Virus record (IMG/VR): IMGVR_UViG_3300010293_000006
Coordinates: 1-48,475 of that record
Length of the DNA: 48,475 bases
Direction: 5' to 3' (one strand)
Source: a virus
Part shown: piece after piece, positions 1,946 through 30,941 of the stretch
How the letters are laid out: every line of letters begins with the position of its first letter
Numbering within the stretch: the stretch's first letter is position 1
Made by a program: the position numbers and the translations under genes
Notes under the pieces: generated by a model
What the model was told of the DNA's origin: nothing
The model's input: only the letters and a program-made list of their open reading frames with translations
Database searches by the model: none

Positions 1946-4900
1946 ATGCCTAAGAATCGACTCGAATTTACTCAGTTAAAAGGTGGTATTACTACTGAAG
2001 TTAGTACCACTGACGTAACAAGTGAGTTCCCTTACTATCTAATGAATGTTAATCCTAATCTTCAATTAGGAAAGATTGGTGGATATTATGAAGACGCTTC
2101 CATTAATTACGGAGGGCAAGCATCGTTTAAGGCTAATGTTATAACTACATATAATTTTGATGGCATTAACTACTTGATTTTTAATAGGTCTGTTACTGAA
2201 AGCGGGTTGGTTGCAGATAGACTTTATTCTATCGCGTTTCAGGCAGGTGGGCCTGCCGTTTCTACTCTCAGCAATACTAGGTTTTATGATCTTGAGAATG
2301 TTGGTCAATCTATTCGAGCGTTGAAATATTCTTCTAACAATATTCCTGATATTCCAATGTTTGTTGGTAAAATTAATCATGATTTCTTTGGCACCGCGCA
2401 GCCTAATGTCGTAGTTACTGATGCTAGACTTCTTCCTTTAGATGCTGATACTGGAACTATGTTTTATAAAATATGTAGGTTTACTGAGATGGGGCCTACT
2501 GGTGGGGATTATTCCGTTGCAATAAAATATGGTGATAATAAGGTTTACTTGCTTTATGATAATTATGTTATTGGGAATAGCCTTGATGACTGTGACATTG
2601 AGTTAATCAGTACCCAGGCTTTATGTGAACTAGACAAGTCTGGAATGACCTTTCCAGCTCACTGGGCTGTTTATGATAAAGATGAAACTGAAAGCGGAAC
2701 TGTTTATTTCTTTACTTTAGGCCCTTCGGCTGATGATCCTCTGGCTAGGGTATTGGTTTTACAGGGTTCGCTTCCTGTCGAGGGTCTTCTTTTAGACAAT
2801 ACTGATGAACAGAACATAACTGATATGATTGCTACTGACTCTCATATTGGTGCTCATCCTTCGTTTATTTTATGGTTTTCAGTTTATGATGAAGATACTG
2901 ATGGACAATTTAAGTGTTGTTATAAGAGATATGTCTCAAGAGCCGAGTATAGAAATGAGAATGCAGAAGGACAAAATGGAAATGGTTATTTAAGGAATGC
3001 ACAATTTTTATGGCGAGCGGTGCTTACAGAAGCTGGCGGGCATCCATTTTGGGTGAATGAAACGTCTGTTGCAGTTGTAAACATGAGTCCTTGTATGAAA
3101 GCTACTGATGACACTGTGAGAAGGCATGGAAGGCTTTGGATTGACCATGAAGTCGAAAGTCGTACTGAATATTTTTGGATGGAACAATTTAGAAAGCCTC
3201 TTCTTCGACATGGATATTCAGCTCTTGGTCACGGTGGAAATGATGGATATGAGTGGGTTGGTTATTTGTGTAACTTTTATGCAGATGAGAATGATGGAAA
3301 CGGAAAGGTTCCCCAAGTTTCGATTAACCACACCGACGATGGCTGGATGACTCTTACGATAAGTGGTCTTTGTGTATTATGGTGTTCTAGTAGTATTTCT
3401 GCTATAGATTATAATGAAACTTATACTAATCCTTTTGCTGATAGCAATTTGGATACAACTAGTGAAAGGTATGTTAGGGCTGGAACTAGAATCTATTTAT
3501 CTACTGAAGAACTTGTTGATGGTGAGAGTTTTTATGAGGATAGAACGGCAAGAAATAGACGCTATGGCAAGGACAAAGTATGCGGAGTCCAGAACATAGA
3601 CTATGGATCTCCTAGATTATTATTAATTGTGAATGGAATAGCTTATTTCTATGATTATGCTAATGGTAATCTTGCCCCAGGCACTACTTATTCATGGATT
3701 AGAAGCTTAAATCACACATCATTAACGACGGCGTACATAGCTGGCATAGAATATTATATTATTAAACATATTATCGGGCTTGGTTATCCTGCTAGACCAG
3801 GCTACCCAATAGGATTTCTCCCTATAGAGAATGTTAAAAATGAAGATGGAGTTTTCTTTCAAAACGGCTATCCAGGATTAATGTCTGCTGTTGGCGTTAA
3901 CCCTAAAATTTATAGAGTTGTTTCAGAACAAAGTGGTATGTGTAAATTAACTGCTTATTTTACCTCTTGGGGTGGATGGAGTACTGTCGGATTTTCCTTG
4001 ATACAAAATACTGGTAAATATTACTTTATAGAGCCTTCTGGTACAAATGCCATTGGGATAAGAAAGGGAGAAGCCTTTAAGTATTATACTTGTTCATGTT
4101 ATGATGGGAACCAGTATTCACCTCTTTCTCCTTCTTTTGGAGATACTGTTGCTCAAGTTGATGATGAGGGAACCAAGATTACAATTTATCTTAATAAGAA
4201 CCAAGTTGATGGTGGAAATGTTATGAGCAAAAGAGTAACTGATTTGCTTGTTTTTAAGTCAAGGGTTGGTGGGATTAGCGGAAGCTATGAGAGCATCCCT
4301 AGAGAAATAGCTAGAGTGTCTCTTATTGATAAGACCGGTGTTCATGAAAGGTTTGGCGTTAATTGCTATCGAATTATAGTTAAGGATAAGAATGAGCTTG
4401 GAGCAACCTATCAAGACATTTCTGGCTTTTCTCATTTGAGAGAAATCACTACTCCATACTATGCTGTTCAGCATTTTGACGGTTCTAGTCTTTATATTGG
4501 GAAATGTTCTGGTATTGAAAATTTTGAAGATGCTGATAGGGTTATTTTCAAGTCATTCCCAGGTAGGCCAGATCAATTTGATTTGTATGGTCTTTTCCGT
4601 CATCTTCCAAATGTTCCTACTTTTATTTCTGATTGGGGAAAGGATTTGCTTTGCTTTACTAATACTGCCATGCACATATTAGATAAGGAAACACTTGATA
4701 TTAAACATACATTTGAAGGTGTTCATGCTGTATCTGTAAAGAAGCTAGTTGATGGAGTTTATATTTGCACTTATGATGACATTTATTTTTACAATGGGCA
4801 ATTAAAGAAGATTTCTGGCAATCTTGAAAGTGGCGATTTCATCTATAAGGATGAAGCGTTTTCAGAGTATCCACCAGTTATTGAATATAATCAAAAAGAA

Positions 4901-6972: not shown

Positions 6973-7920
6973 ATGGGATGGAATTGGGGAAAAGCTATAG
7001 GTGGAGCTGTTGCTGGTGGTTTATCTGCTGGGCCTTGGGGATTACTTGCTGGTATTCCTGCTGGTTTTGAGAAAGATGCACCTAATGTAGATGATGTATT
7101 ACCTGAAATTGATCCTGATGCTATTGCAAAAAAGACCATTGCAGGTAGCGGATTAGCAGGTACATACTCTAAAATGTTAGGTGGTAGTCGTTCTGCGGCT
7201 CGTAATTATGAAGGCTCGTTAATCGCTTCTGGTGTTGACCCTGTTACTGCTGCTAGGATTGCGGCAGAGAAAGAACAGTCTGGTGTCGCTGCTGCTCAAG
7301 GCCAAATGCTTGATACTGAACGTGAAATGACGACTAGCATTACTTCTCAGTTAAGACCTTTGCAGATGCAGAGAGAAGAAGAAAGACAATCTTATATTAA
7401 TCAGCAGAAGAATCAACCTAATGCGTTAGAGACTTTTGGCCCAGCAGTGCTGCAAGCTGGTCTTGGCAATCTTGCCGCTGGTCAAGGTTTCTTGGGTAAG
7501 GGCTTTATGAAGAGTACCGATGTTGCCAGCGTTGAGAACTTCACTGATGAGATGGGTGTTACAACTCCTAAATATCTTAATAAGTTTGGTTCTCAGATTA
7601 CCGATCAAGGAATCATTAACGCTTACAAGAATACTGCTGGTAAGCCTAGCATTTGGCAAACTCTTACCGGTGGGCCTGTTGAAATTACAAATACGAAGGC
7701 TGCCCCGCTTGGTGCTAATGAAAGGCTAATGAGGGGAATTCTTGATAGAGCTACAGTTAATGGCAATGTTGAATATAAGAAGGTTGCTGAGTATATGAAA
7801 GAAGCTGGTCTTGGCGGTGGATTGACAATGGACGAACTTACATCTGCTATTCAAACTATGCTTCCTAGTATTATTGAATCTCTTAAAGGTTTAACTCCCT
7901 CTGTTCAACCAGTTAATTAA
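6973..7920 (+). CDS. Internal virion protein with N-terminal glycine zipper
   Basis: 315 residues with an AAGGAG site before the ATG. The first 33 residues form a Gly/Ala-rich amphipathic stretch ('GGAVAGGLSAGPWGLLAGIPAGF') of the kind found in ejection proteins that insert in the host membrane during DNA entry. The middle is helical and Gln/Glu-rich ('QLRPLQMQREEERQSYINQQK'). It is the first of three consecutive genes (with 7932 and 8924) that look like the internal or ejection protein set of short-tailed phages, comparable in position to T7 gp14-gp15-gp16 or P22 gp7-gp20-gp16. No sequence identity to those is claimed. Confidence 0.6.
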   Translation: MGWNWGKAIGGAVAGGLSAGPWGLLAGIPAGFEKDAPNVDDVLPEIDPDAIAKKTIAGSGLAGTYSKMLGGSRSAARNYEGSLIASGVDPVTAARIAAEKEQSGVAAAQGQMLDTEREMTTSITSQLRPLQMQREEERQSYINQQKNQPNALETFGPAVLQAGLGNLAAGQGFLGKGFMKSTDVASVENFTDEMGVTTPKYLNKFGSQITDQGIINAYKNTAGKPSIWQTLTGGPVEITNTKAAPLGANERLMRGILDRATVNGNVEYKKVAEYMKEAGLGGGLTMDELTSAIQTMLPSIIESLKGLTPSVQPVN

Positions 7921-7931
7921 GGAGAAGACAA

Positions 7932-8912
7932 GTGGCAATCTACGTTCCAAGCCCTACTGATCGCACACTTGAGGCAATTACTTCTGTTATTTCTGAGTTC
8001 AACAAGGCAAAGCTTGCTAGAGAATTATCTACTGAGAATGCGAAGCTTAGAAGAGAAGAGATGGCGTCTAATGAAAGAATGCAAGGAAGACAGATTGACG
8101 CTGGAGCAATGAATAGCATTTTGAATTATATGGGACAGTCTCAAGCTACTAATGCTCAGTTAATGGGTACTGGTCTTCAAGCTGGTACGTCTATTGTTAA
8201 TACTGCTGGGACAAATGCTGCCAATGTTCAAGTTGCTCAGACTCAGGCTGGCGCTGATATTGCTGTAGCTAAAGAAGGTACTAGGCAAGCTGAAATTGCT
8301 GCTGAACCTGATAAGATGCAAGTTCAAGAAATGATTAATGAGAATGAAAGAAACTGGACTTTAAGAAATGATCTTATTAATGAAATCAAGAAGAAGAAGC
8401 AAGATGTTGCTGCTAAGTATGACGCTGCTGATGCTAATGTTGTTACAACAAGGGCTGGCTTAAAAGGTACTAGTGGCCTTCAGCTTACTCCTGAAGCCGA
8501 AACCGCATTAGGCCAAATTGAACAAATGTCTGCTGCTGATGTTTCTCAAGTTAAAGCTTTGATGCTTAAGGCTACCAAAGAAATTGAATCTCGTGGCGGT
8601 GGCGAGGATTGGTCTTGGGCTGACTTCTTTAATGGTGCGGGCATTGTGGCCTCTGGAGTTGCTGGCGTTGTTACTGCGAAAGTTGGTGGACTTCTTCTAT
8701 TTGGGCCTATTGCTGCTGGGCTAGTTGCCAATCAAGCAAGGATGGGTAATAATGCTAAGGCCGCGAGAGAGCAGGCAAGGGCCGTGCTTGCTTATGTTTC
8801 TGCTGTTGAATCTAGGAATAGTATTCTTGAGGAAGAGACTAAGGCTGATGAGAAGCTTTATGACTTAGTGTCTGGCGTTCAGACTGCTGCAACAGTTACT
8901 GGCGGAAGATAA
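7932..8912 (+). CDS. Internal virion (ejection) protein
   Basis: 326 residues from a GTG codon preceded by AAGGAG; no ATG near the frame start fits. The N-terminal two thirds are long helices ('ISEFNKAKLARELSTENAKLRREEMASNERMQ') with an Ala/Thr/Gln-rich repeat-like section around residues 75-120 ('GTSIVNTAGTNAANVQVAQTQ'). A hydrophobic Gly-rich stretch, 'GAGIVASGVAGVVTAKVGGL', lies near residues 235-255, followed by another helix. This composition suits a protein stored in the capsid that forms a channel with its neighbours. It follows the 6973 gene by 11 bases and precedes the giant gene by 11. Confidence 0.6.
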   Translation: MAIYVPSPTDRTLEAITSVISEFNKAKLARELSTENAKLRREEMASNERMQGRQIDAGAMNSILNYMGQSQATNAQLMGTGLQAGTSIVNTAGTNAANVQVAQTQAGADIAVAKEGTRQAEIAAEPDKMQVQEMINENERNWTLRNDLINEIKKKKQDVAAKYDAADANVVTTRAGLKGTSGLQLTPEAETALGQIEQMSAADVSQVKALMLKATKEIESRGGGEDWSWADFFNGAGIVASGVAGVVTAKVGGLLLFGPIAAGLVANQARMGNNAKAAREQARAVLAYVSAVESRNSILEEETKADEKLYDLVSGVQTAATVTGGR

Positions 8913-8923
8913 AGGAGTTAGCG

Positions 8924-11900
8924 ATGATAGACTTCGATCCCACCAAGTACGATCAAACCGAAGAGCAAGAAGCTACTATCGGGTCGATGTTCTGGCAGGG
9001 ATTAAACGGTTTCGTCGAAGGGTTCACTACATTAAATCTGCCTAATGTTGGTGCGCCTAAGAATGATGCCGAAGCCATTGCCAGGAAGGTTGGTGGCCTT
9101 CTTGGTTTTATTGGCTATATCCCCAACCCTTATACCCTTGCTACGAGTGCTGCTGTTAAGCTTGGCGGCAGATTTGGTGCAAAGGCTTTAGTTAATTGGG
9201 GAAATAAGCAAGCTATTAAGCAAGTATTGAAGACTGGTGAAAAGAGTGTAACTAAGCTTATGACTGAACTTGGTGAAGACGGAGTTCAGAAAGAAGTGCA
9301 AAAGCTTTTTAAGGAGCATGGAGCAGGACTACTTAGTACAAACGTGTTGGCTACTGGCGTTGGCAAAAAGAGAATTGGCGGATTTGTTGGGAAGACCTTG
9401 CCTCTTCCTAAATCTGTTTTTGGTGACCATAGGTTAAAGGTTAGCTCTATTCCGTTGATGTTCTCTGATCTAGCCATAAACAGCAAGGCAGGTGTTGCTC
9501 TTTCTGAAGCTGGAAAGAGGTTATTGCTTAAAACAAAGTTCTTAAACAATACTAATACATTCATTGGTAGAGAAGGTCAAACTCTTATTAAACAAACTGT
9601 TCATGGTAGTATAAATCTTGGTCTTGCTAATTCTTTAGCTGCTACCGGCATTGATCCGTTTCAATGGAAAGAAAGAATTGATGAAGCTCTTCCTGCCCTA
9701 TGGGGCGGAATGCAGTTTGGAGCTGGAGACGGTCTTATAGGTAATATGGGCAAAATCCTTACTCTTGCCGGAATGAAGGGTCAGGATAAGGTTATTGAAG
9801 GAATGTTAAAGACTATTGCTGGTTCTTTATGGAACGGTCTTCCTTCTACAATGCACGATGCTTCTACTCCTGAACAGATATATGAGTATTTATTAGGAGC
9901 ATGGTTTGGGTTCCATTCCGTTAATGCTAAGGCTTATGAGACAAATGAAGGTTTGCGGAAAGTTAATTCAAGAATAAATGCTGATGGCGGAAATATTGGT
10001 AGATTTTATAGAGATATGACCAATGATTATGCTTATCATAGAGAAAAATATGGATTAAAGGAAATTAATGATTACGATGTTGCTCATGGTAACTATGGTA
10101 TTGAGAAGAGTGTCTTTGAGATTATGACAGAAGGGATGATTCCGCCCGGTGCTGTTGATGCTTACATTAAGGGCGAGCATCCTAATAGTGATCTCCTTGC
10201 TACTGGTACTGTCCGCGTTGGGGATCATGAAGGGTATGAGAGGCACGTTGCTGTTCAAGATGTTCCGCCTGGGAGTAAGGAACACGCTGACATTGCAACT
10301 ACCGCTACTATCCTTAAGCCACTTACTACTAAGGCAAAGAATCCTGATGGTACGTTTGTATTAGACGCTGCTGGTAAACCTGTTGGTGCAGAGAACACTG
10401 ATCCTAGATATGTGGTGATTAGAAATATTGAGGGGATGAAGGCTGAAGCTCTTAAGAATAGTGCCAAAGATGGTGAGGGAATGAGGTCTAGCAATCCTGA
10501 TGTTATTGATATTCCTAGAGAACTTGTTGATAGCGTTGACCTTTATATGGACGTTCAGTTAGCCCATGAAGCCTATCATGCTAGATACCTTAATGAAGGT
10601 TTCAAAGATATAGCTAACAATGAAAACTTTATGACCCTGCTTGCCCTTCGTCAGACCGCTCAGGATCGTGGTGAATTTTATGTTGAAAGGCTTAAGAATA
10701 GCACAACCTATAAGAAGCTGGTTAATAGTCTTGACGGCAAAGCTAGGGCTGAATGGCGCAGAATGGTTGACCATGACAGTGCTGAGAAGTTCCAGCCTGG
10801 GGACGCTAGGGTTTATGAAATTCCTGATGGCAGTATTGTTAGGTACAACATTGGTGACGCTGAGGTTCAAGGTTCTAGGGCTACTCGTAAGGGAAGAATT
10901 GTTACTATTGACAAGAAGAATGGAACCGCTGTTGTTGAAAGAGTGAATTCTGTTGATGGTACTGTTCATACTGACCAGATTAAACTTGAACAAATTGACA
11001 TGAACTATGGTCTTAATTCTCACCTTAATGATGTTGTTGGCAAAAGAGTTGTAGAGAAGAAGACTGAACCTGTCGTTGCTCCTGAGCCTGCAAAGCCTGT
11101 TGAGCCTGCGAAGCCTGCTGAACCTGCTAGAAATGTTAGACCTATTAAGGATGTGTTGCCTAAGGTTGAAAGAGACGCTGAGAGGGTTAAGGGCGAAATT
11201 AACAAAGAATTACTGGAAGAGCTTGCGAAAGATGTTACAAGACCAGAAGCTTTCTTTGATGAAGTTCCTACTGCCGAGAAAAAGCTTGTTATTGAAAGAG
11301 AGCGCATTAGAGAAGCTGAAGGCAATGACGTTGGCCTTGATCCTGTTTATGTAGAAAGAGTTATTGAAGGGCTTAAGAAGAATGATGGCGAAAGAGGAAG
11401 AGCGTTAGACTATATCGCTAATGAAATGGCTAGTGGTAGGTCTAATGAATTGTCTCAGCTTGATATGTTTATTCGTGAAGCATTCCCTGAGCAGGTAGAG
11501 AGTAGATTAAGAGGAATGAAGGATAGGGCTGAACTTGCTGATGCCCCTGCTTCCACTAAGACAGACCATAGTGGCTACTTAGAGTCTGTCCCTGAGGTGC
11601 CTTCTACTCCTGAGTATGGATTCCAGTATAATAAGAATGCCTTTAATCTTGTGCCCAAGGAAGGTAAGGATTTCTCTAGCACTGATCCTAATGATTACTA
11701 TATCTACTCTGTTAAGACTGGAAAGGAAACCAAGTATGCTGGGAAAGAGAAGGCTAAGATTGTCTCTAAGGCTCTTAGTGAGATTCATAGCACTAAGGTT
11801 GAAGCCGCTTCATCCGATCCTACTGGTGCGGTTCCTGAGCCTAGACCTTCTGCTTTTGGTGATACTGCTCCTACTCCATTGCCCACTGAAGTTATAGAAT

Positions 11901-14900
11901 ATACGCAGAGAGTAAGAAAGAACTACAAGCGAATCAAAGATGCTCTAAATGATATTATAAACAATCCTAAGACTGGTGATGCTTATGCAGATCAATTAGC
12001 TCGTACCCAGCAAGTGCATGATGATTTCATTTTGCGCCATAAAGTTTTCCTGACAAAAGAGCAGAACTCTGATGCTATGATTGCTGAGTATAATGCTAGG
12101 AAACAAAGAAAAGCAACTGAGGCTAAGACTGAGAAGGTTGATCCTACTGCTCCGACTGAGGGAGAGGTCGTATCCACTCCTGCTGCTTCTGTTGCTGAAC
12201 CTAGACCGCTTACAGAATCTTTAGATAGACTTCTGAAGAATATGCGTGATCTTCAAGCGTCTTATGATAGAATGGATAAGACTGCTGCTGCAATGCAAGA
12301 AAATGCTGCTAAGATGGATGCTGCTCTTGAGAAGTTAGCTAATAAAGTAAGTGAAACTACTCCACTTAGTTCTCCTCAGGTTAGAGAAGTAATCGAGTCT
12401 ACTCCTTTAGGCGTTAGAGATGGTAAACTTGTCTATGCCGAGGGTTTAGCTGCCGAGTTAAATAATAGCTTCAGGGTTGGTGAAACTATTTCTAGCTTCA
12501 TTGATGATATGTCTCGCTTTAGGGATAGGCTTGACGTTGCCTCAGAGCTGGGCGGTGGGTCGTATCCAGTAGGTAAAGAAGTTCTAACTAACAAGATCGC
12601 TGATTCGTTGTATGAAGGAACTAAGCTTACTGGCATGGGTAAGCTTAGAGCATTTGCTAATAAGATTCGTGGTGCTGTTTTAACTATCACTGCTGCTGTT
12701 AGTTTTCATTCTGCTATTCCTATGTCTGAGTTTACAATGGTTAGGCAGTCTGAGATGGTTAGAGATATTGGGCCTAAGACAATTCATGTTGACCCATCAA
12801 TCAAGAGTAATGAAGTTAGAACCATTGCTGAGTTTGCTGTTGGTGGCGATGCTGGTGGGAAGCCATTCGTAGTTGTAGATAAGAGCAATGCTAGGATGAC
12901 AGTGTTTGACGCTAAGGGTAAAATTGTAGAAGAGACTCCTGCTCTTCTTGGTAAGAGCGTTGGAGATAGATTCAGCGAGGCTAGAAAGAACGCTAGAACT
13001 ATTGAAGAAGTAGAGGCTTCTGGTCAAAAGGTTACACCTGCTGGTAGATTCACTGGTCAAGTTACTCCTGATAGAGAGTATGGCTCTGTCCTTAGATTCA
13101 ATGAGACTAGCAATGGTGGAACTACTGTTGCTATCCATCAAACCTATACTGGTACTCCTTCTGAAAGAAGACCTGAAAGAATTGCTTCTTCTACTACATC
13201 TGACAATAGAGTTTCTTTTGGTTGTGTGAATGTACCTAAGGAAATCTATGATAGAAACTTCTCTAATATTGGAGATAGATTTACTGTTTATGTTCTTCCT
13301 GAGAAGAGTTCATTTGAAGAAGTCGGTTTGCCGAAACCCAAGGAGAAGGATGCGCCTGTCAGCACGGCAAAGGAGAGCTTGACCGATGCTCCCCCGTCCC
13401 CGCCTGCCAGACAAGCCACGGAGACGCCTAAGCCTGTCCAGCAGCCACTTACGACTCCACCCGCCACTCCTGTCACGGGAAGGCCGGATCGTGCCTCTAA
13501 GCCCGTCCCAGAGGCTAAACCGATTTCTGAAGGGCTGTCCCGTGTTATTCATAGTGGTGGTGCTAAAGGTTCTGATAGTGCTTGGGAAACGATAGGAAAG
13601 AAGTTTGGTTTTAAGACCAATCATTACTTCATAAGAGGATTTGGTACTCCTAGAGGTAACACTCCTATTGATGTTAATAAGCCTGAGGTTGACGCTGCAT
13701 TGGCTAGAGCGAATCAGCGTCTAGGAAGAAAGTTCCCAACGGCTAAGGAGTATGTTAACAATCTTCTGAGAAGGAATATCGCTCAGGTTACTAATTCTGA
13801 CATGGTGATTGCTATTGGCGAGGTGTCAAAGGATTTAAGGAATGTGGAAGGTGGCACTGGCTGGGCAGTTGCTTCTGCTATTATTGACACTAAGAATCCT
13901 GTCTTTGCTTTCGATCAAACTAATGGTAAGTGGTATGAATTTAATAGAGAGACTGATAGATTTGCTGAGTCTCGCGTTCCTACTCCTACGGATAACTTTG
14001 CTGGAATAGGCACTAGAGAAATTAATAAGCTTGGTCAAGAGGCGATTGAATCTGTCTTTGCACAGAGAGCCGATATTGCATTTGCTAAAGAACATCCTAT
14101 TGGCAAGATTGATACTGAGACTGCGTTTAGAATTAGAGAGACAGTTAGGCCCTTAACTGATTTCCTTGAGCGACATGGCTTTAAGGTTGAAGAACATAAA
14201 GACTTAATTATTGATTTGTCTAACAAGATGGTAGGCGTTGATCCTACTAATATTGAACAGGTTAGTAGAGCCATTGCTGCCCCTGTTGCTGAGATGATGT
14301 CTTACTCTCAATCATTCTATGATGTTCATGCTGCTATTTCTAAGAGTGAGTTCTACCAGAAGTTAAGACAGAATTATCTTGATAGAAACTATAGGCATCA
14401 GGCTGCGTCTAGGCGTGCCACTATTGATGTGTTTAGAAACCTTTTGGTTAGGGGATTCGCTGAGGGTATAGCTAAGAGAGCCAATATTGATCGGTCTATG
14501 ATTTCTAGGATTAAGAAGTTTGTCAGCAACTTGATTGACAAGTTCAAGATTGTTGATACCAAGTCTATTGAGCATTCAATTAATCAGATTGTTGACAATA
14601 CCTTTAGGGGCGAAGAGTTTATCAGGACTACTGAGAAAGAAGGATATAAGCAAGTACGGCTACAGGATGCTTTTGATTCTAGTCCGATAGCTAAGAGAGT
14701 TCTAACAAATCTAACAAATAAGAATAAGAATCTAATCCTTACTGGTAGCACCGCCTTTGCCGAGCAGGGTACTGTTTATCGTCCAGAGACAATGAAGATA
14801 CACGATGTTGACTTGGTGAATACTGGTACAAGAGAGTCTGCCATTAATGATATGATGGAGCTTTATCCTAATGCCTATCAAGCTTATAGGTTTGGTTCTA

Positions 14901-17900
14901 GTGGTGGCTATGATACTACTACATTTATTATTCCGCCTGAGGGTGGAAAGATCTCTAATGTTCAGAGAAGACCTGAAGGCAATAAGATTATCAGTTATGA
15001 AGTTGTAGACAGCGATGGCAGAGTTATTGGCACTTATAAACTTAATTATGAGGTCGCTCCTTCTGGAAGAATTATAAATGAAAAGGAGATTAAGACTGGT
15101 GAAGAGGGTACGTTTGTTGACTTCTTTACTACAACTGATGCGAGAGAGACTCTTGAGATTCCATTCATTGACTCTAATGGCCTGGAGAGAGGATTAAGAA
15201 TCTCTCATTTCGCTGATCCATTTGCTGCCAAGTTAGAGTATAGTCGATTCAAGGATATTTGGGATTACAATAGATTTATGCCTTTTGGAAGAGGCGGCAA
15301 GACTGAAGTAAAAGAAACGACTGGTGAGCGTGAGGTCGTCAGTCCTACGATTGTAGAAGCTCCCATTGAAGCTGAGAGAATGGATGAATATAGTAGCCTT
15401 CTTGCTGGTCAGCGTCCAGAGGATATGCCTGCTGCGTACTTTGAAGAGCCTGCATCTGCTGGTCATAAGGTTGATTCTACTCTTTCTACTGTCGCTGAAC
15501 CTGAAGCTCTTGATCGGGCCGAAGCCAGGAGAGAGCAGGCTGTTGTTGATAGTCAGGTTGAAGATGGTATGCCTAGAGACAATGATGGGATGACTTCTGA
15601 GTTTAAGTCTGGTTTGGCTGAAAAGGTCGCTCCTACTAAGAGAGATGGTGGACGTAAAGAAAGAGTAGTTGCCAGCCCATTTGAAGCCACTAGGATTCTT
15701 GGTCTTGAGAATGAGCGAGAGCTTATTGATAAGTATTTGCCGCCTGATGGAGCTACTAGAGCAGATTATGTTGCGGCAGCTAGAAGAATTATGGCCGACT
15801 CTATTGGCGATAATAATAGACCTAGAATTAGTGAGCTTGATGCTAGACACATCATCAATGTTCTTACATCTAAGAGTCCATCTGTTACTTACTATCTTGA
15901 TCCCTTTACTTCTGAAATCATTTCTGAGCGTGGGATTGGCAAAGCTTCTCATGCTGAGACTAGCACTGGTGTTGAGCATATCTTTGTAGAGAGCGGAATC
16001 GCAAGAGAGCTTGGCAAGGAAAGAGGCGACCTACTTGCTCTTGATATTTTAGAGGCTAAGGCTGATGGTGGAGAACTGTGGGCTGACATTGGTGTAATTG
16101 GCAGCAGAAGAATTATCGTTAAGGCCAACCCTGAACTTCAGGAAGAATTTAAGCAGACGTTCCCTAATGGTGTTCGTGGTGAAGATGTTGATGTGATTGA
16201 GCTTGAAAGGCTTAGAGGTGTAGCGACTCAGCGTTATTATGAGAAGCTGTTTGGTAAAGAGATGATCGAGAATGCCATTAAGAAGGGCGAGGTTGGTGTT
16301 CTTATCAAGAGAGCCAATGCACTATTTTCGCCTTCTATTGGATCCAAATTTGGAGTTAAGGCAAAGGCTGCGGTTATTGATGATGATGTTGCTCATAAGT
16401 TTGCTCCTCACGCTCCCATTACCCATAATGGAGTTGAGCTTACTTCTATCTATGCTGGTGAAGATGCCCCTTATGATAACCGTTTAGATGGATACTTATT
16501 TGTAACTAGAACTGGTGGTAAGTTGACTCGTCAGACTCACGGTGTTAGAACTAATTCTGACCAGTTCAAGATGATTGGCTTTGAAAATGATGGCAATAAT
16601 GTTTCTATGTTTAAGGGATTGGCCTCTGTTGACGGCAGATTGCATGATAGCTTTGACGCTGCTGGGATTTCTTATGTGATTCCCAAGAGTGTTGCTAAGA
16701 TTCTTTTCGGAGATAAGGCTGTCTATAATGAGCTTTCTGGTCAAGAGATCATTAACGGCACTGGTGACAGACAGTTAAATACTATTGATGTTAATACGGA
16801 TATGTTCAGGCTGTTGTTCGCTATTCCCAAGACTGGTAATCCTTCTGCTGCATTTGGTGTTCAGGCCATTGACTCTCTTTCTCCCAATACTGTTAGCACT
16901 GTGCTTGACTATTTGATTAAGCCTGCTCTTGCTGAGTATCATGGGTTGAATGGTGCTAAGACTTCTGCTGATTTTATGAAGATGATTATTGAAAAGCTTA
17001 ACCTTGATCCTGAAGATATGATGTTTAGTGGTGACACTTATAGAGAGAAGCGTCAAGCTGAATGGGCTAGAGCTATTCTTGAGAGAGGCGAGAGTCCGTT
17101 TAGTATTAAGAATCGTGGTGTGACTGAAGACCTTATGCTTAAGTATGTTAAGAACGTCATTTCTCCGCAGGTTACTAATGCTGGCTGGGTGTATTATGCT
17201 CCTGATATTACTGGCAAGTATCGTGAAAGAATGAAGTTTAAGAGAAAAGACGGCTCATGGGGAGTTACGCCTGCTCAGTCTGGCGTGCCTGTTGCCATGA
17301 AGAATCGTTTAATGGATTATTCTAAGATTATGTATTGGGATGAGAAAACTCTTAGTTATGGAAGACTTGAGAAGATTGGCGATAAGATTGACGATAAGTG
17401 GATCAAGCTTGGCGATGCTAAGGATATGGCTGATCGTCTTGGCGTGAAGATTGTGTTCATGTCTCAGAGAAGTCCGAAGCAGAAGTTTGAAGATAGCATT
17501 ATTGCCGAGCTGACAGAATTCAATGATAAGATTGATGGCAATGTTGTTGTTCTGCCTAGCGTTGAAGCTGTCTCTATTTCTGAAGGTGACTACGATGGCG
17601 ATGCTACTGCTATGTTCTTTGACATTCCACCTTCTGTTATTAAGGAGTATGTTACTAGAGTAATGGATACTGATGGCAGACCGATGACAGGTGCTACTAA
17701 GCTTGACAGTCCTAAGGCTACCCTTGTCCGTGATCCTGTTACTGGTGAAATGGTTACGCCTAGCTTCATTCAGGCATATAAAGAAGCACTGAAGAGAAAG
17801 CAAATTGCTAGTGGCATGGTTCCTGTTATCGTTAACAATAAGAGTACCCTAGATCAGCTAGTCGATAAGCAGTTCATTGTTCATGTTGGCGGCAAGCAAT

Positions 17901-20900
17901 ATGCTATTAGATATGATAGGCCAGTTAGAAATCAGTTCTCCAAGATGTTGCAGTCTGGTGTGGATCATGCCAAGAAAGAGCTTGAAGAACTGCTTAGAGA
18001 GAGTGATGGTCATATCCCATTCGTTGAACACGCTATTGTTCGTCAGGTATTCAATACTCCTATTGAGCCTGGCAAGCTGTATTCTGATGCCGATATTATT
18101 ATTGAAACCGTTCTTAAGCCTTTCAAGAATGTAACGTCTTCTACTAACCCTGGCAACTTTGACTCCAGCAGATCAAATGTCGATGCCTCTAATCTTATTA
18201 ACGCAATCAATAGAGCTAAGTCTATCATTGCTGGTATGGAAAAGGATGGTAGCAATACTGCCCTTGGTCTTATGTTCTATAGAGATTATCTTGATGCTCA
18301 GGCATATTTAGCTCGTGAAGTTCCTGGAACTGACTTTACCTTTGCCTCTCTTTATAGAAAGATTAAAGCTGAGTATCAAAGAACTGGCAAGATTCTTCCT
18401 AGAGATTATGCTCTTTATCGCACTGGTAGAATCGTTGAAGTTTATGATTCTATGCCTAAGCGCAAGATTGCTCTAACTGGTAGAAACGCTACACTCAATA
18501 GATCGTTCTATGATATTCTTGTGAAGGATGACTTTATCAACATGATTCCTTCTAATGAAATCTATCTGCCTATCATTCGTGTTGATGGTATTGATACTGC
18601 TATGGCTGGGTTCAATAGATTTAGAATCATATCGGACTTCCCTGAAATCTTTACTTCTGCTCCTGTGTCTGCTGTTAGGTTTGGTGCTGAAAGAAGGGAT
18701 CAGCCTGATACTAGAGCCAATAGACAGAATATGTCCTCTGCTGCTGCAATCAATAGAGGTAGAGTCTCTGATTATAGAACTATCATTCACAACCTTACCC
18801 TTATGAGGATGTACGCGAATAGGCACGGCAGTATTTCTGGTGCGGTGGATTATCTGCAAAGCCAGACTGGAGCTAATGTTAAGCTTCTTATTACTAAGTA
18901 TAGATTGCTTAAGAGAATGTCTGATATTATTACTTCTCGCGATAGAATGAGTGGAGCTGCTAAGGAAAAGATTGTTAGAAGAATGATTGCTGGAGTTCTT
19001 CGTTCTGATAATCCTAATGCCCTTACTTGGAAAATGGATATTAAAAATCCTGAAGTCATTGCTATGGGCGAAAGATTAATGGAGTTAGGCCGACAGGGTA
19101 GTTGGAAGAAGTCTGCGTTAGCTACTATTAGACTTGAGATGCTTAATATTGCTGAAGCTTTCCCTGCTGAATATCGTCCTCTTCTTTCCTTTGGTTTTGA
19201 TAAGTCTGCTGGTGGTGAGACAAGTATGTTCCAGTCACGCCTTACGCCTAGAGCGTTTGAGGTTGACGGGTATCTTACTGGTAGAGCTGCCATTGAGTAT
19301 AGAAAAGCTGAAGAGCAGATGATGGAAATTGGTAGGCGCAAGGAATTTGATTCTACTGAGACTAGACCTGCTTCTTTATGGAAACTTGTGCAGAGCAATC
19401 CTTGGTTGGTTGATAGTATTCCTTCTAAGAAGAGTCATGGTTCTAGGCTTATTGAGCGACTGCATCAGGGATATAAGGATGGTGAATTTAGAAGAAATGC
19501 TAATCAGATTGTTGATGTACCACCAGTTAAGAAAGAAAGATACGACCTACCTTATGACTTGACAGCTCATGCCCGTGTAGAGGAACTATACTTTACTGGT
19601 AATCCTAACTTCCAGCTTTCTCCGTTGCAGAAGCACATGATTAATAATATGATTGAAGTGTTCCCTGACATTGTGAACAACTGGCATGGATATTTGCAGC
19701 ACGTTCTTGGTAAGTCTTACATAGAAGACAGTGCTGATTTATACCGAGTTTATAGAACTGTGATGAAACACGCTACTGGTCAGGCTCAGATCAGCATTTG
19801 GGCTAGACAAATGTGGCCTGATGCTAATGATAGAAACTTCTTTGCTTATGACCAGAATTGGTTTGAGGTAGATTATTCTAGGAAGGATGCCTTTGCTTCA
19901 AGACCGATGAATCATTGGATGAAGAAGCATGAACTTAACGCTGCTCTCAAGTTGAAAGAAAATGGTGGAAGAGCTTTTGCTGGTAATGCCATCAAGTCCT
20001 TGTTCTATGATTTTGAAGAAGTAAGCAATAAGGAATTTGCTGCTGGGTTTGGCCCTATCTTCAAGGGTTTTGATCCTAACGCTGTTCCTGAAATGAAGAA
20101 GAGACTTAAGGCTGTTGTTGAGAGCGGAGACACCGCTAGACTTCTTGTTATTGCCGAAAGAAAGCTTCAGGGCAATCCGGCTGATAATGTTCGCAAGCCT
20201 ACTGAAAATGAGACTAGAAGATGGCAAGAGGTAGAAGCTGAATACAATGCCCTTGGTGCAGACAAGAAGGAGTATGTTGATTATTCACTGAAGCAGATTA
20301 GACGCCTTGCTAACTATGTCAGAACAAATGTTATTCCTAGAGTCCAGAAGCTCCAACAGCAAGCTACTATTCTTATGATGGCCGATCATCCTGAATATCT
20401 TACTCCTGAGAAAAAGGATGATCCACCTAATATTAAGATTAAAAAAAGATACTATAAGAAGCTGCTTGAGTATCGCAATAAGGGTCTGATCCATCCTTCG
20501 TTTAAGGTTGGTACTATCTATTCTTATTATCCTCGTGTTTATAATGACAGAGACTTATGGATTAAGAACATGATGGCAGAGAGAGATCGTCTTGTTGCCC
20601 TTCATCCCGATAGAGCAGCTAGACTCGATGAAGTGTTTAATGAGGCAATCAGAGAAGAGCTTGCTGAGAGCGGAAGAGATGGCGTACCTGTTCTTGATGA
20701 AAGAAGATATGCTAGCGACTTCTCTGTTAATAGAACTACTGCACACTTTAGGAAAAGAGTGTTAGACCTTGACGGATATTCTGAGAATGTGCCTAAGGTT
20801 CTTAGAGAGTACCTTGCACAGATGTTGAATTTGGAACACAAAATACGAACTGGTATTGTTCAAAAAAATCTTACTGACACCTTCCACGCAGGAATGCTTT

Positions 20901-22324
20901 CTCGTAATGTTAGCCCAGATCATGCAGATAGAATTAAACAAATGATGCAAGTGTATGACAGAGATGTGCTTGGCTTTATTAGTAGAGGGAATGTCAGACC
21001 TCAAATCCTTAAGTATCTGAAAGACAAGGTTAGCAAGAAGAAGCCCGAGGAAAGACCTTGGGAATATGAAACTGAATTCTCTGATCGCACTGCTATTGAA
21101 ACTGCTAGAAAGAACCTAAAGAGAATGGGATATAAGGGAGCTATTAATGATGATGCCGCTGCCGCATTCCAGAACTTAGAAGCTAAGTATGAAGTGATGT
21201 CATTGCTATTCCATCCCAAGACTTCTCTTGCTAATGCGGTTGGTGCTACACTTAATATTGCCAGCACCTCTAGCTTTGACGATATTAAGACGGCCAGAAG
21301 GATGCTTAGGGAAAGTAAGGAATGGAGAAGGTTTGTTGAGGAGCAAGGTATTTCTGCTGAGTTTTCTGAGAGCGAGCTATCTCTTGAGCCTCGGTTTGAA
21401 AAGCCTGAATATCTCCAAGCGTGGAAAGATGCACAGGGTCTTATTAAGGAATCCGCTACTAAGGCCGAAGCGATGCGAAGAGTCTATGCCATGCTTAAGG
21501 AAAGAGGAATTGACGCTAGTGTTATGAGAGTGGCATCCATGTTCATGCAGCCAGTTGAGCAGTATATGAGAGAGCTTAGTTTTACTATTGGATTTAATAA
21601 AGCTACTTCTTGGGGATGGACTGAAAGAGACGCTATTGAATTTGGCAGAAGAAGCGTGAAGGCTACTCAATACCTTTACAATAATGCTGAGAAACCTGAA
21701 TTTGCTAGAACTTCTATTGGTAAGATTCTCACTAGATTTATGACTTACTTCTGGTCAACTGTTGGATTCCAGAATAGAATGGCTGAAGAGGCAGATGTCA
21801 TTGGAGTTATTACAAAACCCAATGTCAATTCTGAGTTCCCCACCGATGCTTATGGAAAGTGGATGACTGCTATTGCTGTGATTATGGGGCTGTCAACCTT
21901 GTATCCATTCTCTATCTTTGACACTGCTACTCCGCCTCATATTGATTACCTTAAGGCTACTACTGAATTGATGTTTGGGCCTAAGGAAATTTCTGAAGAT
22001 GCGTTCTTTGGCTCTTATGGCTTGTCTCCATTCTTTGCACCATTGCCGTCTAAGCTTGTCCTTCGTCCCACACTTGCGGCTATGAGTGGAGATTGGGATA
22101 AGTATTTGGATCAGCAGGTTTGGACGCTATTCCCATTTGGTAGATTTGCTAGAAGTGTTACCAAAAGCGTGCAGAATCCATCGTATGTTCCTGAGATTTG
22201 GGCTGGTATTCCTCTCCATTCTGCTAGTAAAACTAATAGCGCGATCAAAAAGCTTGAAATGAAAGATGAGGATATTGACCAATACATCAGATCATATCTT
22301 GACAAATCGGAACCTGTTGAGTAA
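8924..22324 (+). CDS. Giant polyvalent virion protein with zincin, L,D-transpeptidase, SLOG-like and two-barrel RNA polymerase domains
   Basis: 4466 residues, AAGGAG-type site, ATG start. Visible modules in order: hydrophobic Gly-rich N-terminus (about 60-110); zincin motif HEAYH (548-552); charged/Pro-rich linker (about 700-1090); coiled coil (about 1095-1145); hydrophobic stretch (about 1248-1265); L,D-transpeptidase (about 1310-1465) with His1405 and Cys1434 in 'SFGCVNV'; GC-rich Pro linker; SLOG-like nucleotide-binding fold (about 1538-1690, 'SGGAKGSDSAWE' at 1544). A weak nucleotidyltransferase-like pattern follows (GS at 1941, DVD at 1961-1963). Next comes an RNA polymerase core (about 2480-3030): Lys2564 in 'MFKG', Arg2849 in 'QRSP', DYDGD at 2889-2893, 'GVDHAKKE' at 3012-3019. 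The last 300 residues carry amphipathic and hydrophobic helices ('MTAIAVIMGLSTLYPFSIF'). Position after two ejection genes and sheer size imply that it is packaged and injected. The RNAP, zincin and transpeptidase motifs are seen; packaging is inferred. Confidence 0.8.
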   Translation: MIDFDPTKYDQTEEQEATIGSMFWQGLNGFVEGFTTLNLPNVGAPKNDAEAIARKVGGLLGFIGYIPNPYTLATSAAVKLGGRFGAKALVNWGNKQAIKQVLKTGEKSVTKLMTELGEDGVQKEVQKLFKEHGAGLLSTNVLATGVGKKRIGGFVGKTLPLPKSVFGDHRLKVSSIPLMFSDLAINSKAGVALSEAGKRLLLKTKFLNNTNTFIGREGQTLIKQTVHGSINLGLANSLAATGIDPFQWKERIDEALPALWGGMQFGAGDGLIGNMGKILTLAGMKGQDKVIEGMLKTIAGSLWNGLPSTMHDASTPEQIYEYLLGAWFGFHSVNAKAYETNEGLRKVNSRINADGGNIGRFYRDMTNDYAYHREKYGLKEINDYDVAHGNYGIEKSVFEIMTEGMIPPGAVDAYIKGEHPNSDLLATGTVRVGDHEGYERHVAVQDVPPGSKEHADIATTATILKPLTTKAKNPDGTFVLDAAGKPVGAENTDPRYVVIRNIEGMKAEALKNSAKDGEGMRSSNPDVIDIPRELVDSVDLYMDVQLAHEAYHARYLNEGFKDIANNENFMTLLALRQTAQDRGEFYVERLKNSTTYKKLVNSLDGKARAEWRRMVDHDSAEKFQPGDARVYEIPDGSIVRYNIGDAEVQGSRATRKGRIVTIDKKNGTAVVERVNSVDGTVHTDQIKLEQIDMNYGLNSHLNDVVGKRVVEKKTEPVVAPEPAKPVEPAKPAEPARNVRPIKDVLPKVERDAERVKGEINKELLEELAKDVTRPEAFFDEVPTAEKKLVIERERIREAEGNDVGLDPVYVERVIEGLKKNDGERGRALDYIANEMASGRSNELSQLDMFIREAFPEQVESRLRGMKDRAELADAPASTKTDHSGYLESVPEVPSTPEYGFQYNKNAFNLVPKEGKDFSSTDPNDYYIYSVKTGKETKYAGKEKAKIVSKALSEIHSTKVEAASSDPTGAVPEPRPSAFGDTAPTPLPTEVIEYTQRVRKNYKRIKDALNDIINNPKTGDAYADQLARTQQVHDDFILRHKVFLTKEQNSDAMIAEYNARKQRKATEAKTEKVDPTAPTEGEVVSTPAASVAEPRPLTESLDRLLKNMRDLQASYDRMDKTAAAMQENAAKMDAALEKLANKVSETTPLSSPQVREVIESTPLGVRDGKLVYAEGLAAELNNSFRVGETISSFIDDMSRFRDRLDVASELGGGSYPVGKEVLTNKIADSLYEGTKLTGMGKLRAFANKIRGAVLTITAAVSFHSAIPMSEFTMVRQSEMVRDIGPKTIHVDPSIKSNEVRTIAEFAVGGDAGGKPFVVVDKSNARMTVFDAKGKIVEETPALLGKSVGDRFSEARKNARTIEEVEASGQKVTPAGRFTGQVTPDREYGSVLRFNETSNGGTTVAIHQTYTGTPSERRPERIASSTTSDNRVSFGCVNVPKEIYDRNFSNIGDRFTVYVLPEKSSFEEVGLPKPKEKDAPVSTAKESLTDAPPSPPARQATETPKPVQQPLTTPPATPVTGRPDRASKPVPEAKPISEGLSRVIHSGGAKGSDSAWETIGKKFGFKTNHYFIRGFGTPRGNTPIDVNKPEVDAALARANQRLGRKFPTAKEYVNNLLRRNIAQVTNSDMVIAIGEVSKDLRNVEGGTGWAVASAIIDTKNPVFAFDQTNGKWYEFNRETDRFAESRVPTPTDNFAGIGTREINKLGQEAIESVFAQRADIAFAKEHPIGKIDTETAFRIRETVRPLTDFLERHGFKVEEHKDLIIDLSNKMVGVDPTNIEQVSRAIAAPVAEMMSYSQSFYDVHAAISKSEFYQKLRQNYLDRNYRHQAASRRATIDVFRNLLVRGFAEGIAKRANIDRSMISRIKKFVSNLIDKFKIVDTKSIEHSINQIVDNTFRGEEFIRTTEKEGYKQVRLQDAFDSSPIAKRVLTNLTNKNKNLILTGSTAFAEQGTVYRPETMKIHDVDLVNTGTRESAINDMMELYPNAYQAYRFGSSGGYDTTTFIIPPEGGKISNVQRRPEGNKIISYEVVDSDGRVIGTYKLNYEVAPSGRIINEKEIKTGEEGTFVDFFTTTDARETLEIPFIDSNGLERGLRISHFADPFAAKLEYSRFKDIWDYNRFMPFGRGGKTEVKETTGEREVVSPTIVEAPIEAERMDEYSSLLAGQRPEDMPAAYFEEPASAGHKVDSTLSTVAEPEALDRAEARREQAVVDSQVEDGMPRDNDGMTSEFKSGLAEKVAPTKRDGGRKERVVASPFEATRILGLENERELIDKYLPPDGATRADYVAAARRIMADSIGDNNRPRISELDARHIINVLTSKSPSVTYYLDPFTSEIISERGIGKASHAETSTGVEHIFVESGIARELGKERGDLLALDILEAKADGGELWADIGVIGSRRIIVKANPELQEEFKQTFPNGVRGEDVDVIELERLRGVATQRYYEKLFGKEMIENAIKKGEVGVLIKRANALFSPSIGSKFGVKAKAAVIDDDVAHKFAPHAPITHNGVELTSIYAGEDAPYDNRLDGYLFVTRTGGKLTRQTHGVRTNSDQFKMIGFENDGNNVSMFKGLASVDGRLHDSFDAAGISYVIPKSVAKILFGDKAVYNELSGQEIINGTGDRQLNTIDVNTDMFRLLFAIPKTGNPSAAFGVQAIDSLSPNTVSTVLDYLIKPALAEYHGLNGAKTSADFMKMIIEKLNLDPEDMMFSGDTYREKRQAEWARAILERGESPFSIKNRGVTEDLMLKYVKNVISPQVTNAGWVYYAPDITGKYRERMKFKRKDGSWGVTPAQSGVPVAMKNRLMDYSKIMYWDEKTLSYGRLEKIGDKIDDKWIKLGDAKDMADRLGVKIVFMSQRSPKQKFEDSIIAELTEFNDKIDGNVVVLPSVEAVSISEGDYDGDATAMFFDIPPSVIKEYVTRVMDTDGRPMTGATKLDSPKATLVRDPVTGEMVTPSFIQAYKEALKRKQIASGMVPVIVNNKSTLDQLVDKQFIVHVGGKQYAIRYDRPVRNQFSKMLQSGVDHAKKELEELLRESDGHIPFVEHAIVRQVFNTPIEPGKLYSDADIIIETVLKPFKNVTSSTNPGNFDSSRSNVDASNLINAINRAKSIIAGMEKDGSNTALGLMFYRDYLDAQAYLAREVPGTDFTFASLYRKIKAEYQRTGKILPRDYALYRTGRIVEVYDSMPKRKIALTGRNATLNRSFYDILVKDDFINMIPSNEIYLPIIRVDGIDTAMAGFNRFRIISDFPEIFTSAPVSAVRFGAERRDQPDTRANRQNMSSAAAINRGRVSDYRTIIHNLTLMRMYANRHGSISGAVDYLQSQTGANVKLLITKYRLLKRMSDIITSRDRMSGAAKEKIVRRMIAGVLRSDNPNALTWKMDIKNPEVIAMGERLMELGRQGSWKKSALATIRLEMLNIAEAFPAEYRPLLSFGFDKSAGGETSMFQSRLTPRAFEVDGYLTGRAAIEYRKAEEQMMEIGRRKEFDSTETRPASLWKLVQSNPWLVDSIPSKKSHGSRLIERLHQGYKDGEFRRNANQIVDVPPVKKERYDLPYDLTAHARVEELYFTGNPNFQLSPLQKHMINNMIEVFPDIVNNWHGYLQHVLGKSYIEDSADLYRVYRTVMKHATGQAQISIWARQMWPDANDRNFFAYDQNWFEVDYSRKDAFASRPMNHWMKKHELNAALKLKENGGRAFAGNAIKSLFYDFEEVSNKEFAAGFGPIFKGFDPNAVPEMKKRLKAVVESGDTARLLVIAERKLQGNPADNVRKPTENETRRWQEVEAEYNALGADKKEYVDYSLKQIRRLANYVRTNVIPRVQKLQQQATILMMADHPEYLTPEKKDDPPNIKIKKRYYKKLLEYRNKGLIHPSFKVGTIYSYYPRVYNDRDLWIKNMMAERDRLVALHPDRAARLDEVFNEAIREELAESGRDGVPVLDERRYASDFSVNRTTAHFRKRVLDLDGYSENVPKVLREYLAQMLNLEHKIRTGIVQKNLTDTFHAGMLSRNVSPDHADRIKQMMQVYDRDVLGFISRGNVRPQILKYLKDKVSKKKPEERPWEYETEFSDRTAIETARKNLKRMGYKGAINDDAAAAFQNLEAKYEVMSLLFHPKTSLANAVGATLNIASTSSFDDIKTARRMLRESKEWRRFVEEQGISAEFSESELSLEPRFEKPEYLQAWKDAQGLIKESATKAEAMRRVYAMLKERGIDASVMRVASMFMQPVEQYMRELSFTIGFNKATSWGWTERDAIEFGRRSVKATQYLYNNAEKPEFARTSIGKILTRFMTYFWSTVGFQNRMAEEADVIGVITKPNVNSEFPTDAYGKWMTAIAVIMGLSTLYPFSIFDTATPPHIDYLKATTELMFGPKEISEDAFFGSYGLSPFFAPLPSKLVLRPTLAAMSGDWDKYLDQQVWTLFPFGRFARSVTKSVQNPSYVPEIWAGIPLHSASKTNSAIKKLEMKDEDIDQYIRSYLDKSEPVE
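12166..12175 (+). repeat. GGTCGTATCC decamer, copy 2
   Basis: Exact copy inside the giant gene, read there as part of Glu-Val-Val-Ser-Thr. Confidence 0.8.
12558..12567 (+). repeat. GGTCGTATCC decamer, copy 3
   Basis: Exact copy inside the giant gene, 392 bases after copy 2 and in a different reading frame, coding Gly-Ser-Tyr-Pro. Confidence 0.8.
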
Positions 22325-24073: not shown

Positions 24074-24192
24074 CTAGGAGCCTCGTAGCGGGGCTTTCGT
24101 CAGAGGGTTGGTGTCAAGGGCAGGGGAAAGGGGCATCGTTGCTCCTGGGCGACGCTAGGCCACTCTATCGCAGCCTTAGCTTTGTGGCGTGG
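24074..24192. other. GC-rich gap with hairpin and shared motif
   Basis: 119 bases, strikingly G-rich on the + strand. AGCCTCG and CGGGGCT (about 24079-24096) form a 7-pair stem with a 3-base loop just before the 24073 start codon. The segment 24135-24151 shares an ATCGTTGCTC-[CT]TGG-[GA]-CG block with the gap at 30912-30928. No gene is seen. Confidence 0.5.
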
Positions 24193-30825: not shown

Positions 30826-30941
30826 GAACCCTCCAGAAAAGTGTTTAGGCTCTTAGGGGCTTTATAGGGGCGGCTCATCGGTCGGGGATGCCTTGACCTA
30901 GGCTTGGGCCAATCGTTGCTCTTGGACGGCCCTACACCTCT
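30826..30941. other. GC-rich gap with shared motif
   Basis: 116 bases, G-rich on the + strand, with no gene. It contains ATCGTTGCTCTTGGACGG (30912-30929), closely similar to 24135-24151. Both copies lie just downstream of minus-strand stop codons. A related CGTCCAGGAGCGA lies in the opposite orientation at 38636-38648. Confidence 0.5.

Follow-up and report, generated by a model that had tools for sequence, protein, structure and literature searches.

The IMG/VR virus record IMGVR_UViG_3300010293_000006 is a linear sequence of 48,475 bases, which was analysed over its whole length and is called the window here. A giant open reading frame (ORF) of 4,466 codons lies on its plus strand, and the genes for two small cysteine-free proteins lie directly upstream (Table 1). 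The terminase of the window resembles terminases of podoviruses and N4-like phages, and the source phage, which is uncultured, looks to be of a short-tailed type. Within the giant protein, residues ~2430–3020 are read here as the catalytic core of a single-chain two-barrel RNA polymerase (RNAP) of the QDE-1/crAss gp66 type, embedded in an almost cysteine-free ejection protein. We assign a probability of about 0.85 to this reading.

A preliminary description, made from the nucleotide sequence alone, had proposed such a core on the basis of the motifs DYDGD, QRSP, GVDHAKKE and MFKG, and all four lie at exactly the residues it gave (Table 1). The R-S-P motif precedes DYDGD by 40 residues. Among 3,000 shuffles of the giant protein, DxDGD by itself arose in 208, while RxP followed by DxDGD 34–42 residues further on arose in 4 (about 1 in 750). 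On its own, the motif pair is suggestive of an RNAP; it rises far above chance because three aspartates and three lysines are invariant in 34 divergent cores and are kept in the two relatives closest to the window core.

Relatives were reached by way of the terminase, the alignment of which led to related records, these to giant ORFs and the giant ORFs to profiles. A search with the terminase alignment yielded 80 IMG/VR relatives with 23–37% identity. In one record (G034) a 2,904-residue ORF matches the window core (E = 1.4e-5), and the larger records hold giant ORFs with R-x-P followed by D-x-D-x-D. The giant protein of another record (G002) aligns with that of the window in blastp at the N-terminus (residues 25–336, E = 3e-24) and at the C-terminus (residues 3948–4436, E = 1e-43). 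Scans with the C-terminal region (A3) and the N-terminal region (A7) of the giant protein returned 46 and 79 loci, respectively. A DxDxD core lies upstream in 35 of the former, the ORFs of the other 11 ending at a contig edge first, which makes 35 of the 35 members long enough to tell. For the N-terminal region DxDxD was found in 71 of 71 loci with long ORFs, preceded by RxP in 69 and by S/T-x-P in 2. The two sets overlap in some contigs and neither was chosen on the core; therefore, DxDxD constitutes independent evidence there. Judged by sequence, the same giant-protein design is present in about 100 related environmental phage contigs.

A scan with the cores of the window and G034 added seven core relatives (group B), which were partly chosen with the pattern EGD[YF]D[GI]D, so that their DxDxD is not independent evidence. 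In hhalign comparisons the window matched group B with E = 1.9e-10 over 802 columns, and group B matched a sister family (group C) with E = 1.5e-15 over 668 columns. No significant match was obtained between the group C profile and the window by itself; the link goes through group B or through the two closest relatives, L190 and L191 (blastp E = 2e-18 and 6e-29, respectively). In an alignment of 34 rows (A4), the members of which are otherwise 13–18% identical to the window, invariance is confined to columns K2549, K2564, K2592, G2596, R2849, P2851, D2889, D2891 and D2893. L190 and L191 retain the catalytic lysines and aspartates as well as VDxxK, the motif for which the preliminary description had suggested a counterpart in GVDHAKKE. 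Its other choices were likewise borne out by conservation, with Lys2564 and the three aspartates invariant, Pro2851 present in all sequences and Arg2849 in 34 of 36. Separately, six loci (L172, L177, L240–L242 and L262) carry the variant catalytic motifs DNDFD and DKDGD within the same flanking pattern.

Structure prediction followed by structural search against QDE-1 and gp66, proposed in the preliminary description as a check, was positive for both barrels of the window core and for the well-modelled sister family. The window core was modelled with AlphaFold2 (AF2) from an alignment without L190 and L191, and the two barrel regions mostly reached a predicted local distance difference test score (pLDDT) of ~65–95. 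Its best Foldseek matches in the Protein Data Bank (PDB) are all two-barrel RNAPs, namely 6vr4 (E = 5.5e-9), QDE-1 (1e-7) and RDR2 (3e-5). In VIA alignments Z reached 17.0 for QDE-1 (2j7n; root-mean-square deviation 5.0, 308 residues, model positions 31–522), 15.3 for RDR2 and 10.3 each for gp66 and P23-45 gp96, with 14–16% sequence identity in the alignments to QDE-1 and RDR2. The group C core, modelled from 25 sequences, attained a pLDDT of 84.6 and a predicted template modelling score (pTM) of 0.84. Its best PDB match in Foldseek was again 6vr4, the packaged polymerase of phi14:2 (E = 4.6e-8), and VIA-align gave Z values of 18.3 for QDE-1 (over 430 residues), 13.3 for P74 gp62 and P32 gp64, 12.2 for phi14:2 gp66 and 11.3 for P23-45 gp96. 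By computation, then, the predicted core shows a two-barrel fold that carries conserved sets of catalytic lysines and aspartates. From this fold and these residues we infer DNA-dependent RNA synthesis by the core.

Phage particles probably carry the giant protein and inject it together with the DNA, as judged by analogy with known ejected polymerases, because the gene position is N4-like, the terminal regions of the protein are shared and its cysteines are almost entirely lost. In the window, tail-type genes are followed by the two small proteins and then by the giant gene, which closes the structural block, the same arrangement as gp52, gp51 and the virion RNAP (vRNAP) gene in N4. The N- and C-terminal regions are common to the giant-protein family whatever lies between them. 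The giant protein of the window contains 1 cysteine in 4,466 residues, compared with 61 in 6,459 (0.94%) in the 15 other window proteins. No cysteine occurs in the vRNAPs of N4 (3,500 residues) and Pylas (3,819), in P23-45 gp96 (5,002) or in 67 of the 71 long ORFs from the N-terminal scan. Alternatively, a real two-barrel polymerase might be made in the infected cell and act late, as a non-virion enzyme. Such enzymes have precedents in the separate non-virion two-barrel RNAP of P23-45 (PMC10770324) and in YonO of SP-beta, a known single-chain RNAP (PMC5467207). We consider this unlikely, since the position at the end of the structural block, the conservation of both terminal regions across the giant proteins and a cysteine loss matching that of proven ejected polymerases all speak against it.

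The giant protein of group B is divided between two ORFs. The single cysteine of ORF1 (2.8–3.1k amino acids, with the RNAP core) stands in the last two residues, and the single cysteine of the overlapping or adjoining ORF2 (475–951 amino acids) in the first nine. All 7 of the 7 pairs show this arrangement (L091, on the minus strand, with ORF1 ending at 4432; L179–L182, L184 and L185), which suggests that the halves are joined by a disulfide or another kind of clip.

If the core belongs to an ejected polymerase, the giant protein would be packaged with the phage DNA, would thread through the tail unfolded during ejection, and hence be without disulfide-forming cysteines, and would refold in the cytoplasm. 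These steps are modelled on N4 (PMC12633501), crAss-like phages (PMC10172136) and P23-45 (PMC10770324). Packaging and ejection would be the tasks of the two conserved terminal regions. Following polyvalent phage proteins (PMC5512222), the HExxH, L,D-transpeptidase and SLOG segments may act at entry on processing, wall and nucleotides. From the gene layout, the first genes to be transcribed by the injected core, without the host polymerase, would be those of the minus-strand block at ~38–23 kb. A 30-base repeat with 77% identity occurs at 24135–24164 and 30912–30941 (minus strand), 60–120 bases upstream of two minus-strand genes, and is a possible promoter element.

Several results weigh against an active, injected polymerase. 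The AF2 model of the window core has an overall pLDDT of only 56.6, and past residue ~2925, in the part corresponding to bridge helix and trigger loop, values fall under 50 and the chain was not modelled. Arg2849 is replaced by S/T in the two nearest relatives. Repeat and promoter scans of the window gave no convincing repeated phage promoter. Residues 2450–3050 have no match in Pfam, PHROGs or PDB sequences, fragment searches included. Profile alignments with hhalign against the single gp66 and gp96 sequences were not significant (best for gp66, p = 0.015, at DxDxD), and no sequence-profile search relates the core to a named family of RNAPs. Part of this would suit a degenerate or repurposed two-barrel domain, structural or nucleic-acid-binding, without polymerase activity: the middle of the giant protein diverges rapidly, Arg2849 is absent from the nearest relatives and the elements downstream of the barrels could not be modelled. 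The strictly conserved positions, however, are the catalytic lysines and aspartates, in sequences that otherwise share so little identity with the window, and we regard the loss of activity as improbable, more so than late expression. Finally, a chance likeness of the motifs in an unrelated giant structural protein, for which the few shuffles with the motif pair and the silence of the family databases could be cited, is contradicted by the fold matches and by conservation in independently chosen relatives and can practically be discarded.

The core is invisible to ordinary annotation. No match was obtained by tblastn with the window core against 50,697 phage records, by tblastn with the cores of its relatives against the phage record collection, or in single-sequence IMG/VR scans with the core, the major capsid protein or the terminase. 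Scans of bacterial genomes found no relative, and an open-access literature search found no description of this giant two-barrel RNAP family. One member of the 34-row alignment matches the Pfam RdRP family at 0.0013, among 26 families at that level, and this was not used as evidence. Pseudoalteromonas phage Y7 was rejected as a core relative: only a C-terminal stretch is shared, with a DarB-like protein, and inspection of the translation by eye revealed no core.

Table 1. Features of the giant protein and of the genes upstream of it (residues of the protein; positions in the window)
Feature	Residues	Position	Strand	Basis
Candidate ejection protein, 315 aa, Gly-rich N-terminus, no Cys		6973..7920	+	Position directly upstream, composition; analogy with N4 gp51/gp52
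Candidate ejection protein, 326 aa, no Cys		7932..8912	+	Position, composition; analogy with N4 gp51/gp52 upstream of vRNAP
Giant ORF, 4,466 aa, proposed ejected virion RNAP fusion		8924..22324	+	Single open frame, 4,466 codons, no internal stops
N-terminal domain conserved in the giant-protein family	25–336	8996..9931	+	blastp to G002 giant protein, E 3e-24; alignment scan, 79 loci
HEAYH, zincin-like, motif level only	548–552	10565..10579	+	No Pfam match; HEFYH/HEAYH at 501/553 in L190/L191
L,D-transpeptidase (YkuD)	1315–1444	12866..13255	+	Pfam PF03734, E 6e-6, above cut-off
SLOG (DprA/cpYpsA-like)	~1526–1713	13499..14062	+	PHROG 768, E 2e-9 at 1541–1661
Two-barrel RNAP core as modelled	2430–2921	16211..17686	+	AF2, Foldseek and VIA matches
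Lys2549, side of double-psi beta-barrel (DPBB) B	2549	16568..16570	+	Invariant in A4; kept in L190/L191
Lys2564 (MFKG, 2562–2565), DPBB-B side	2564	16613..16615	+	Invariant in A4; kept in L190/L191
Lys2592 (S-V-A-K), DPBB-B side	2592	16697..16699	+	Invariant in A4; kept in L190/L191
R-S-P (QRSP, 2848–2851), counterpart of beta-prime R-A-P	2849–2851	17468..17476	+	R and P invariant in A4; S-S-P in L191, T-S-P in L190
DYDGD, predicted catalytic metal-binding loop, DPBB-A	2889–2893	17588..17602	+	Three Asp invariant in A4; DWDGD in L190/L191
V-D-H-A-K (GVDHAKKE, 3012–3019), counterpart of [AV]VDxxK	3013–3017	17960..17974	+	Aligned VDAIK in L191, VDGPK in L190
C-terminal region conserved in the giant-protein family	3560–4450	19601..22273	+	E 2e-100 to L190, 2e-92 to L191; scan, 46 loci

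Upstream of the core, the L,D-transpeptidase is the sole family above cut-off in a Pfam search of the giant protein. The only cysteine of the protein, Cys1434, belongs to the SFGCVN motif of this domain, presumably at the place of the catalytic cysteine of YkuD enzymes. The SLOG domain is, in tblastn, 48.7% identical to crAss-like phage cr113_1 and 46.8% to the vRNAP of Klebsiella phage Pylas. The latter, an N4-type enzyme (L187, 6043–17502), carries an internal SLOG with 41% identity to that of the window over 227 columns. SLOG is fused to two-barrel relatives of the window protein as well, for instance as a cpYpsA domain in L140 (E = 3e-22). The N4-type virion RNAP carries HExxH (PMC12633501), and the two-barrel vRNAP of P23-45 is likewise fused to a metallopeptidase domain (PMC10770324). 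The preliminary description had called the combination of fused domains unfamiliar from described phages. For SLOG and HExxH this does not hold, given their recurrence in Pylas and two-barrel relatives and in L190, L191 and N4-type giant proteins, respectively. The L,D-transpeptidase was seen in the window protein only, among the proteins examined, so that the fusion looks less unique than claimed and peculiar in this one domain. In addition, the segment GSTAFAEQG...IHDVDLV (window ~14744–14850, residues 1941–1975) resembles the nucleotidyltransferase signature G-S...D-x-D; a pattern search found no such motif in L190 or L191.

We regard the giant proteins as a new family within a kind already known, the giant virion-borne two-barrel RNAP. 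With an injected polymerase a phage can begin transcription independently of the host enzyme, and highly diverged two-barrel enzymes are relevant to how all RNA polymerases originated. As injected single-chain two-barrel polymerases, PMC10770324 discusses those of crAss-like phages and P23-45, to which the window family is a large addition. Speculatively, giant ejection proteins may be a modular chassis (terminal ejection regions, HExxH, SLOG and no cysteine) into which unrelated engines are installed; N4-type phages have a T7-like one and the window phage a two-barrel one, and the latter would then represent a third, environmentally widespread injected lineage. As a cheap diagnostic we suggest a giant protein that is encoded last in the structural block, has lost its cysteines and has R-x-P ~40 residues before DxDxD. 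Metagenomes may contain many such candidates for injected polymerases, annotated as hypothetical proteins.

Among known systems, gp66 of phi14:2 (6vr4) is the top Foldseek match of both the window and the group C models. It has RxP ~39 residues before DFDID, its gene lies among virion genes, and the protein is packaged and injected (PMC7886860). In contrast to the window core, which lies inside a 4,466-residue chain, gp66 is a separate protein of 2,180 amino acids with 2 cysteines, beside other RNAP-associated proteins, and its phage is crAss-like whereas the terminase of the window is podovirus-like. P23-45 gp96 (8h2m) likewise has a two-barrel core in a giant cysteine-free virion protein with a metallopeptidase domain (PMC10770324), and the spacing from RxP to DxDxD is 38–39 residues in gp96 and gp66 compared with 40 in the window. 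However, gp96 is the tape measure of a long tail with an N-terminal polymerase (DFDGD at 779 of 5,002), whereas the window core is central, its ORF carries no tape-measure assignment and its phage seems to be short-tailed. Between the two cores no sequence similarity was detected. Membership of the gp66 or gp96 family is not shown by sequence.

N4 gp50 and the Pylas vRNAP (Schitoviridae) are giant, injected, cysteine-free proteins with HExxH, encoded last in the structural cluster. They contain a T7-like single-subunit RNAP, whereas the best fold matches of the window core are two-barrel enzymes; blastp of the giant protein found no match to N4 gp50 and none to the Pylas vRNAP outside SLOG. 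On the predicted fold, the giant protein is therefore not of the N4 type but has a different polymerase engine. QDE-1 and plant RDR2 give the highest structural Z and share the layout of Lys and DxDxD and the VDxxK, yet are eukaryotic cellular enzymes of RNA interference. YonO of SP-beta, compared by description only, is a single-chain two-barrel phage RNAP (PMC5467207), but a stand-alone enzyme of ~100 kDa. By modelled fold and residues the giant protein belongs to the two-barrel superfamily, and by analogy it would work like gp66, gp96 and the N4 vRNAP.

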